Positions 22,635 to 25,169 of a stretch of DNA of 30,602 nt are shown in pieces (the first letter of the stretch is position 1; every line of letters starts with the position of its first letter). The notes beneath the pieces are model-generated. The model had not been told where the DNA came from. It made no database searches and worked only from the letters and a program-made list of their open reading frames with translations. This DNA comes from a virus, in IMG/VR virus record IMGVR_UViG_3300037189_008019, positions 1 to 30,602 of that record; one strand, written 5' to 3'. Both the position numbers and the translations under genes were made by a program.

Positions 22635-23870
22635 ATGGGAGTATTTGACCGCTTATTTGCCAAGCCTAAGTTAGTAGAGTTGCCAAAAGTGCAAACATTC
22701 GAGGCTGCAAGACGTGCGCCTAAGCCAGCGACCAAAGATGCGTTAAAGCGTACTACTCCGTTATTTAGCGATGATACACGCACGTTCCGCACAGCCTTAG
22801 AAGCGGCCCTATCTAAGACGAACCCGAACAGATTGCAATTGGTAGACATTTACGATAGATGCGAATTTGAGCTACACTTGCTTTTTGTCTTAGAGCAACG
22901 CTATAATTCAATTCTATCAAAGCCTTGGATGTTGGTAGATGCCGACGGCCAGCCAGACGAAGAGGCAAAGGAGCGTTTTAGCGGCGAATGGCTTACAGCG
23001 TTTATCCGTGCTGCATCTAAGGCAAGCGTAAGAGGTACGCAGTTGGTGCAAATTGCAAGCGATGAATATCCACTTACAAGCGATGGACTGCCAACCTACA
23101 TCGAGGATATAGACCAACGCTACTTTGTGCCAGAATTTAGCATTATCCGTGATAGCACGGCTGGCATAACAGGCACCAACTACTTTGATAAGCCCTATGT
23201 AGACTGGGTTATCCAAATAGGGGATAAAAAGCAATTGGGCCTAATGGTTGCAGGGGCGACTATTACTATCCTTAAAAAGATAGGGTTATCGGGGTGGGCA
23301 GAACGTACCAACATCATAAGCGGATTGCTACGTGTAGGCAAAACCGACATTGGCGATGATACACAAAAGGGTTACATGGAAGAAGCTCTGCAATTAGCGG
23401 GCAATCTTCTGTACATGGTTATTGGCAAACACGATGAGGTAGAGATCATAGACCCTTCACAAGGCAGCGGTCAAAGCCAGCACGACACGTTAATGCAATA
23501 CTATGATAGCGGCATTACCCGTCTATTCTTAGGGCAAACCTTAACATCTGACACGGGTGCAAACGGTAATAAGGCTTTAGGTGAAGTACACCAACAAACG
23601 CTTGATATGATAATCGGGGCTGAATGTGGCCGTATTAAGAATATCATCAACACGGAGCTATTACCCCGCCTAATAAATGCAGGTGCTACATGGTTGCAAG
23701 GCTACACGTTTAAGTATGATACCACCGAGCGTCTAAGCCTGCCGCAGTTGATGGAGTTTGTGCCTAAGCTCTTGCCACATGGTAGGGTGGATGCTGAATG
23801 GTTGCAAGCTAAGTTAGGCGTACCGTTTGAATATACCGATGCGGAGGTATCGGCGCTGCCGGGAAAGTAA
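22635..23870 (+). CDS. Portal protein (Mu gp29-like, DUF935)
   Basis: A 411-residue protein with DUF935 features: LVDIYDRCEFELHLLFVLEQRYNSILSKPW near the start, RYFVPEFSI..., WAERTNIISGLLRVGK and a typical C-terminal part (DSGITRLFLGQTLTSDTGANGNKALGEVHQQTL). It forms the dodecameric DNA gate of the capsid. It ends in GGGAAAG-TAA with the Mu F-like ORF open in the -1 frame directly behind, so a fusion of about 688 residues is likely made by frameshifting. Confidence 0.85.
   Translation: MGVFDRLFAKPKLVELPKVQTFEAARRAPKPATKDALKRTTPLFSDDTRTFRTALEAALSKTNPNRLQLVDIYDRCEFELHLLFVLEQRYNSILSKPWMLVDADGQPDEEAKERFSGEWLTAFIRAASKASVRGTQLVQIASDEYPLTSDGLPTYIEDIDQRYFVPEFSIIRDSTAGITGTNYFDKPYVDWVIQIGDKKQLGLMVAGATITILKKIGLSGWAERTNIISGLLRVGKTDIGDDTQKGYMEEALQLAGNLLYMVIGKHDEVEIIDPSQGSGQSQHDTLMQYYDSGITRLFLGQTLTSDTGANGNKALGEVHQQTLDMIIGAECGRIKNIINTELLPRLINAGATWLQGYTFKYDTTERLSLPQLMEFVPKLLPHGRVDAEWLQAKLGVPFEYTDAEVSALPGK
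23843..23870 (+). promoter_or_regulatory. Candidate programmed -1 ribosomal frameshift site
   Basis: GGAGGT (23843-23848), a 12-base spacer, the slippery heptamer G-GGA-AAG (23861-23867) in the correct zero-frame phase, and then TAA (23868-23870). The same heptamer serves in lambda G/GT, and an upstream Shine-Dalgarno-like element stimulates dnaX. After slippage the ribosome reads GTA-ATT-GCG-GCA-AGT into the MuF frame. A bulged hairpin at 23903-23924 lies further downstream. Confidence 0.75.
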
Positions 23871-24700
23871 TTGCGGCAAGTTTGTATGCCTATTATGGCA
23901 AAGTGCCTACAAAGTTTGTAGCACGTGAAAACGTATTTGATGAGGCGTACATAATCCAACTGGCAGAGTCTATTTATTCAGGGCTATACAGTGGCCGTGA
24001 CTTGCCAACGGATGTATACAATAGGGTTTTAGACTATCTAACTAATGGGATGTACACAGGGCTGCAAAAGGTGGCAACTTTAGACGAAGTAAGGCGGCGT
24101 GACCCGTTTATGATAACTAAGCTAAGGCAGAACCTGCAATACTTTAGTGCGGGAAAAACGTACCGCCAAGTTCGAGACGTTGCCAAGCTAATCAACACGC
24201 CTAAAGGTTTACGGAGCCGTTCTGACTTTTTAGATAAGGCATTGCCCTTACTAAATGATTACAACCGTAACTACTTAGGCATTGAATACGATGCAGTGGT
24301 AGGGCAATCGCAGTCTGCAAGTGCGTGGCTAAATTATGAGACCGATAAAGAGTTGCTACCATTTCTAAAATACGTCACGGCAGGCGATAGCAATGTGCGG
24401 CCCGAACACGCAGCCCTTAATGGCATTGTTAGGCGTGTAGACGATAAGTTTTGGGATAGGTATATGCCGTTGAACGGTTGGGGATGTAGGTGTGATGTCG
24501 TGCAATTAGATGAAGCCGAGGAAAGCGATATGACAGACTTTGCCGACCTATCTAATGAGCAACAACCGCCTATATTCCAGTTTAATGCAGGCAAGCGTAA
24601 GCAAGTATTTGGCAAAAGTCACCCTTACTTCTACGTTCCAAAAGAGGATAAAACGTGGGCGCAGGCAGGGTATGGATTATTCACACCTACAAATGAGTAA
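23871..24700 (+). CDS. Mu F-like minor head protein (probably made as portal fusion)
   Basis: The 272-residue region from TTG 23882 to the TAA at 24698 shows the Mu F signature: GIEYDAVVGQSQSASAWLNYE...DSNVRPEHAALNGIVRRVDDKFWDRYMPLNGWGCRCDVVQL, with conserved His, Cys and Trp. The protein sits inside the procapsid with the portal. No ATG occurs in this frame until about residue 57, and upstream the frame stays open through the portal stop to 23831. Translation therefore starts at TTG 23882 or, more likely, continues from the portal by -1 frameshift. The start given here follows the portal stop. Confidence 0.8.
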
Positions 24701-25169
24701 ACCAAACAAAGACATAATAGCCCTTGCCAACCGCCTTAAGCGTGGGCAATTATCCATTTTACGTGGCATGGGTGGCCTTGCAGTTACCCATTTTAAGGAT
24801 AGCTTTACAAAGCAAGGCTTTACGGATTCACGGCTGGTGAAGTGGAAAGAGGTAAGACGCAGGCAACGTACCGAAAGCGGCAAAAGATACCAGTACAAGG
24901 GCTTTAGAGGGGCAAAATACACGGCAGCGGACAGGACACGTGCTATATTGTTTAAGTCGGGCGCATTGCGTAGGTCTGTACACATTAGCCAAATAAACGG
25001 CAGAATGGTGGAGGTCTTATCCAATATGCCCTACTCAAGTACGCATCAATTTGGCCGTAAGAAAGGCAACATACCTGCCCGACCTTTTATGGGCAATTCA
25101 CGAAAACTAAACGTACACGTAGAAAGATTCGTACGTCAATCTTTCGATAAGTTAATCAGCAAGCGATGA
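24693..25169 (+). CDS. Mu G-like virion morphogenesis protein
   Basis: A 158-residue protein starting at the ATG at 24693, which overlaps the MuF stop by 8 bases; the upstream in-frame Met codons lie inside MuF. Pattern: VTHFKDSFTKQGF...VKWKEVRRRQ...RAILFKSGALRRSVHI...VEVLSNMPYSSTHQFGR...ARPFMGNS, typical of Phage_tail_S/gpG proteins that complete heads and set tail length. It overlaps the next gene by 4 bases. Confidence 0.8.
   Translation: MSKPNKDIIALANRLKRGQLSILRGMGGLAVTHFKDSFTKQGFTDSRLVKWKEVRRRQRTESGKRYQYKGFRGAKYTAADRTRAILFKSGALRRSVHISQINGRMVEVLSNMPYSSTHQFGRKKGNIPARPFMGNSRKLNVHVERFVRQSFDKLISKR

Follow-up and report, generated by a model that had tools for sequence, protein, structure and literature searches.

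The window analysed here comprises an entire virus contig (30,602 bases), in which the portal gene of a Mu-like head module ends on a slippery heptamer and the MuF gene behind it lies open in another frame. The question raised by this locus is whether the two genes are expressed as separate proteins or whether some ribosomes pass from one into the other, as the original prediction proposed. Judged by its sequence, the junction is quite probably a programmed −1 ribosomal frameshift site, which would make both a portal protein and a portal-MuF fusion.

Anatomy of the portal-MuF junction

All the features of this junction are on the plus strand. The portal gene (22635 to 23870, taken as the 0 frame) is of the Mu gp29 type, encodes 411 amino acids and matched Pfam PF06074 (Portal_Mu) with an E value of 1.8e-49 (169.4 bits; curated cut-off, 23.9). 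Directly downstream is the MuF gene, which matched PF04233 (Phage_Mu_F) with an E value of 2.7e-12 (47.8 bits; curated cut-off, 29.6). Its frame is −1 relative to that of the portal gene and is open back to 23831, both as predicted, and as far as 24700. The head module of the window was found to contain, in order, a terminase (PF04466), a gp36-like protein (a weak match, under the Pfam cut-off), the portal, MuF, a tail completion protein (PF05069) and a ClpP-type protease, with a DUF2586 protein encoded further along.

The 3′ end of the portal ORF reads GCG CTG CCG GGA AAG TAA. It contains the heptamer G GGA AAG at 23861 to 23867, in the exact X XXY YYZ phase, abutted by the portal stop TAA at 23868 to 23870, and a Shine-Dalgarno-like GGAGGT is located at 23843 to 23848, 12 nt upstream of the heptamer. 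These points of the original prediction were all confirmed. A shift at the heptamer would be followed by 277 amino acids of MuF, read from 23867 on, so that the predicted product has 411 + 277 = 688 residues, the size that had been foreseen. Its N-terminal MuF arm, VIAASLYAYYGKVPTKFVARE (23867 to 23930), carries an L-Y motif, as indicated by alignment and motif counts.

If MuF were instead a separate protein, it would have to be made either by termination-reinitiation at the portal stop, from an ATT at 23870 overlapping the TAA, or from TTG 23882 or GTG 23903, and the heptamer would be a coincidence. These three weak starts are the only ones in the MuF frame before its first ATG, at 24050 to 24052, which lies within the conserved MuF region. 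ATT is a very rare start codon, which argues against its use. The distance to the ATG also argues against a separate start, as it is 56 codons past TTG 23882 (about 57 had been claimed), whereas in the five other window ORFs listed with a TTG or GTG start an ATG is found 3–31 codons inside.

The gene after MuF (24693 to 25169) has an ATG at 24693 that overlaps the MuF stop (ATGAGTAA) and is a likelier start than the listed TTG 24540.

Chance expectation

Our count over the window genes gave 36 in-phase heptamers per 8,729 codon positions (0.41%). Among these 36, the one at 23861 to 23867 is the only one with a stop no more than 6 nt away, and also the only one that opens at least 100 codons in the −1 frame. 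A heptamer exactly at the stop is expected by chance at about 0.4–0.5% per codon, which is a further point against a separate start with a coincidental heptamer.

Heptamers at the junction of related loci

We gathered 245 loci from phage records, IMG/VR contigs and bacterial genomes and located portal and MuF in them by profiles; both genes were found in 222. MuF was in the −1 frame in 147 of 189 separate portal/MuF pairs. An overlap class, in which the −1 MuF frame extends at least 7 nt over the portal end, comprised 134 of the 222 loci, and 119 of these 134 possessed an in-phase heptamer, as counted on raw loci uncorrected for relatedness; a set at ≤90% identity contained 95 frameshift, 53 separate and 20 fused loci. 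The 119 heptamers were T6C in 57 loci, A3T4 in 24, A7 in 14, A6G in 10, A3T3C in five, G3A3G in four, T7 in four and A6C in one. The other loci with GGGAAAG were L107, L114 and L146, and the portal of L107 ends in ALPGK followed by the stop, where the window portal ends in SALPGK.

The heptamers are concentrated near the portal stop: of the 402 codon positions no more than 9 nt from it, 102 (25%) had an in-phase heptamer, against 174 of 32,162 (0.5%) upstream and 3 of 180 in the other separate portal/MuF pairs, while out-of-phase heptamers stayed at about 2% across the last 45 nt. A portal stop 0–6 nt past the heptamer is the rule among these relatives. The −1 frameshift between portal and MuF is therefore well supported among relatives by the 119 heptamers in 134 overlaps, by the hairpins of T-type loci and by the single-ORF fusions described below; for the window itself the case is good, though less firm.

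Where a phylum was named, 56 of 59 genome loci with a frameshift site were from Bacteroidota. The few others came from metagenome bins, for which mis-binning is possible. Mis-binning is likely for the loci L098, L115, L127 and L144, whose bins are named Bdellovibrionales, Rickettsiales, Falkowbacteria and Alphaproteobacteria and whose phage modules are of the Bacteroidota type.

Two further observations were made on single groups of loci. L046 has A_AAT_TTT and a GGAAC...GTTCC hairpin at the portal stop, yet its MuF is in frame 0 beyond the stop, perhaps because of a contig indel or a changed arrangement. In L009, L011, L014 and L015, from gut Bacteroides-type phages, the frameshift-type MuF has long, variable C-terminal extensions, which are reminiscent of MuF polymorphic toxins (PMC5576092).

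The window among its relatives

On the tree the window forms a lone long branch (1.5) within a clade of 53 rows that contains 42 separate, 7 fused and 4 frameshift loci. Its nearest MuF relatives (L017–L020, L097 and L177–L186) are 40–45% identical, start MuF at the portal stop with TAATG or TAGTG and have no heptamer. The original prediction proposed to check whether heptamer and frame are kept among homologous phages; they are kept in 119 of the 134 −1 overlaps but not in these nearest relatives. The ATT at 23870 of the window sits at exactly the position where they place the ATG or GTG that overlaps the stop, which makes initiation at an unusual codon there a serious alternative. Mu, D3112 and other Mu-like phages also have separate portal and MuF genes.

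The details of the junction, however, differ from those of that clade, as the window arm does not have its M-C-x-x-C start and the window portal does not have its L-Y tail. An L-Y motif (e.g. NRLDNLYK) was present in 58 of 64 start-codon-type portal tails but in only 14 of 119 frameshift-type tails; in the frameshift-type loci it is often encoded after the slip. The window portal ends in EVSALPGK and VIAASLYAYYGK comes next in the −1 frame, as in the frameshift type. ATG-initiated MuF genes without a heptamer, which the original prediction regarded as evidence against itself, do therefore occur in the closest MuF relatives, but at a junction that differs by the portal L-Y tail. When the N-terminal arm of the window was scored against an arm profile it ranked above 298 of 300 shuffles, but nine start-codon-type arms scored equally high, so that this comparison did not discriminate between a fused and a separately started MuF. 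Taking the differences at the junction together with the points on start codons and chance given above, we regard a separately started MuF as unlikely.

The L-Y motif is at the portal end in start-codon-type loci (e.g. L017–L020, L097 and L184–L186) and post-slip in frameshift-type loci, as if the same tether peptide sits on different proteins.

The slip position of the window coincides exactly, in the alignment, with the linker KKK of the fused relatives and with the place where L192 and L197 would slip; the slip sites aligned there are A-rich. The fused relatives L029, L098 and L201 are near the window on the tree and align through its junction, as would be expected if this phage has, or recently had, portal and MuF in one ORF and the split arose in the GGG or AAA run, either through a one-base error of sequencing or assembly or by recent mutation. 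The window contig has no close copy for comparison, which also leaves room for such an error. No close relative was found by single-protein searches, a degenerate pattern across the exact window junction gave no match, and a class-wide search of 395 genomes yielded no closer relative. But an error would place the 0-frame stop at a random distance and not abutting an in-phase heptamer, three-base runs are not error-prone, and the split state with a heptamer is the commonest one among relatives. A split by error or recent mutation is accordingly highly unlikely.

Downstream RNA structure

For the T-type loci, folding of the RNA just 3′ of the heptamer gave a median z of −2.38, with z < −1.5 in 79% of the loci against 11% of controls. 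Of 52 distinct junctions, 51 had a stem of at least 5 bp; the 5′ arms of these stems came in 32 versions, and in all counted cases but one the stem begins 3–7 nt after the heptamer. As the arms were picked for pairing, the fair comparison is with control stretches, of which only 0.17% were as good as the median T-type stem. Compensatory changes were seen at positions +11 to +13 of the stems, where C-G or G-C pairs swap to T-A or A-T and the reverse. Heptamer and predicted hairpin together make the T-type junction a classic example of a frameshift signal, shared by hankyphage p00 (L253) and the jmh47 isolate (L014), among other loci.

Such a strong hairpin was sought by folding downstream of the window heptamer and was not found. 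The predicted stem-loop there (23872 to 23923, beginning 5 nt past the heptamer; MFE −15.5) is weak, with a z of −0.98 over 63 nt, which is no better than chance, and of −1.90 over 55 nt. In a separate comparison, 29% of control stretches had an equally good stem.

The frame could in principle be changed by RNA polymerase slipping on a homopolymer run rather than by the ribosome. This is a real possibility for the many A-type relatives with runs of 9–10 A, but the window has runs of only three bases, and the T-type sites have a C after six T, their conserved hairpins standing at the spacing expected for ribosomal shifting. For the junction of the window, polymerase slippage is thus extremely improbable. 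Among the A-type loci, L043, L045, L057, L058 and L083 have 9–10 A at the slip site, which could permit it.

The Shine-Dalgarno-like sequence

The duplex of GGAGGT with the anti-Shine-Dalgarno sequence (−10.8 kcal/mol) was the best among 396 positions tested in the portal ORF of the window. According to the original prediction most genes here lack Shine-Dalgarno sequences (SDs), and indeed only 3 of 34 starts (1222, 8870 and 29856) scored well. Upstream of A/G-type sites an SD of −9 kcal/mol or stronger was present in 3 of 29 loci against 7 of 580 controls (p 0.009), while at a threshold of −6 kcal/mol there was no significant enrichment (4 of 29 against 42 of 580 controls, p 0.17). Strong SDs were also found upstream of the A/G-type sites in L066, L114, L235 and L029.

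We infer that the host of the window phage belongs to Bacteroidota because of its relatives and the lack of SDs in the window. The ribosomes of Bacteroidia do not respond to SDs, because bS21, bS18 and bS6 form a pocket that sequesters the anti-SD at the 16S tail (PMC9976891), which makes a stimulator role doubtful. Given the mild enrichment at A/G-type sites and the sequestered anti-SD, we regard GGAGGT as no more than a possible stimulator in the window. As a general stimulator the SD was set aside, since its enrichment is significant only at −9 and weak at −6 kcal/mol.

Relatives with portal and MuF in a single ORF

Portal and MuF form one ORF in 23 loci (24 with L263), and phrog_35074 is a profile of such a fused portal-MuF. 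In Porphyromonas gingivalis phages the fused ORF is annotated as one portal gene product of some 852 residues; examples are L012 (BK068090) and nine records of similar P. gingivalis phages, whose annotated portal is a portal-MuF fusion with T_TTT_TTC and a GCCCCG...CGGGGC hairpin in the linker.

A slippery run was found in the linker of 23 of the 24 fused ORFs, compared with 11 of 66 start-codon-type portal tails. The phase of the heptamers in these linkers is uninformative because A-runs give matches in every phase (20, 23 and 19 of 24), and what was counted as evidence is the presence of the run, plus the T- and AT-type cases. Two linkers are clear cases: that of L012 has T6C (T_TTT_TTC) and then a GCCCCG...CGGGGC hairpin, and that of L117 has A3T4 and then GCTCCC...GGGAGC. 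In nearly all fused loci a −1 slip at the site reaches a stop within 31 codons, so it would yield a short portal.

A natural fused relative, L098, was modelled with AlphaFold to stand in for the fusion of the window. The model has a confident portal part (about residues 37–390), a low-confidence linker at 394–447 (pLDDT below 50), in which the KKK site is located, and a MuF part that begins near residue 454; with an overall pLDDT of 69.8 and a pTM of 0.45, only the domain layout can be read from it. The best structural matches of the portal part were the JBD30 and Mu portals. In the model the slip site is flanked by two folded units, and termination at that site would leave a complete portal.

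Fused and frameshift loci are intermixed on the tree, with 26 changes among the three states, as expected if a single-base indel interconverts them without loss of function. Fused and split states would then both serve the same two products.

Proposed mechanism

Under the preferred reading of a programmed −1 frameshift, most ribosomes would terminate at the TAA at 23868 to 23870 and give the complete portal subunit of 411 residues. A fraction of ribosomes would slip from GGA AAG to GGG AAA at 23861 to 23867, enter the MuF frame and make the 688-residue portal-MuF. A few of these longer subunits would probably join each 12-mer portal ring and so bring MuF into the head at low copy number. For this phage we infer the slipping itself, its rate, the composition of the ring and its use.

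Comparison with known systems

In phage lambda, gpG and gpGT are made by a −1 frameshift at GGGAAAG, and Xu et al. reportedly described this lambda G/GT frameshift of the tail assembly chaperones in 2004, a study to which PMC3483164 refers. The window resembles lambda in that an X XXY YYZ heptamer, a candidate site for a −1 shift, comes right before the stop of a phage morphogenesis gene. It differs in that the lambda ORFs are tail chaperone genes before the tape measure, whereas the window pair is a portal and a MuF gene of the head module. A position between major tail protein and tape measure, as in lambda, was looked for and not found, the window pair being located between the gp36-like and tail completion genes. 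In Escherichia coli dnaX, the source of tau and gamma, a −1 frameshift heptamer is likewise preceded by an SD. The window too has a heptamer with an SD-like sequence upstream, and the slip in the linker of fused relatives would, as in dnaX, give the shorter product. The protein is another one, however, the slip in the window would give the longer product, and Bacteroidia ribosomes normally do not use SDs.

In SPP1 the portal gp6 brings a few copies of the MuF protein gp7 into the procapsid (PMC6316719, PMC5576092), but unlike the window pair these are products of separate genes that bind non-covalently. Frameshifts of SPP1 are known in the tail genes 17.1 and 17.5 (PMC6316719). The tail tube protein gp17.1 and its C-terminally extended form gp17.1* occur 3:1 in tails by a +1 shift (PMC6316719); they resemble the proposed pair as a structural protein and its extended form at a set ratio, and differ in the direction of the shift and in belonging to the tail tube. 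Portal-MuF gene fusions have been reported in Microbacterium phages of clusters EA and EB (PMC7302621). There too portal and MuF are in one polypeptide, but the fusions are permanent, belong to another lineage and have no slippery linker described. MuF-like genes were remarked among the unexpected predictions of PRFect (PMC10885494).

We found no programmed frameshift between portal and MuF in the open-licence full text of PubMed Central. Frameshifts in genes for phage morphogenesis and gene fusions of portal with MuF are already known, and a programmed portal/MuF frameshift is apparently new with respect to this open-licence literature.

Biological meaning

On a wider scale, we lean slightly towards the view that Mu-head phages of Bacteroidota keep an output of portal and portal-MuF by recoding, in two mirror-image ways: split frames in which a slip makes the fusion, and one ORF in which a slip makes the short portal. 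These two would interchange by single-base indels, with a covalent tether, made at a set rate, taking the place of the non-covalent MuF recruitment known from SPP1.

If the frameshift is real, several consequences would follow. Annotations would need correction, as hankyphage p00 and other Bacteroides phages have MuF annotated separately from an internal start. The junction would serve to study frameshifting where ribosomes keep their anti-SD hidden, and the slip ratio would set the dose of any cargo carried on the long, variable C-terminal parts that some MuF proteins of these phages have. The covalent tether would reach, at a set rate, the same end as the portal-borne entry of MuF in SPP1. 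It would also provide a simple handle on how the copy number of a scarce head protein in the virion is controlled: a portal ring of nominally identical subunits would be mixed by design, with the ribosome setting the number of MuF.
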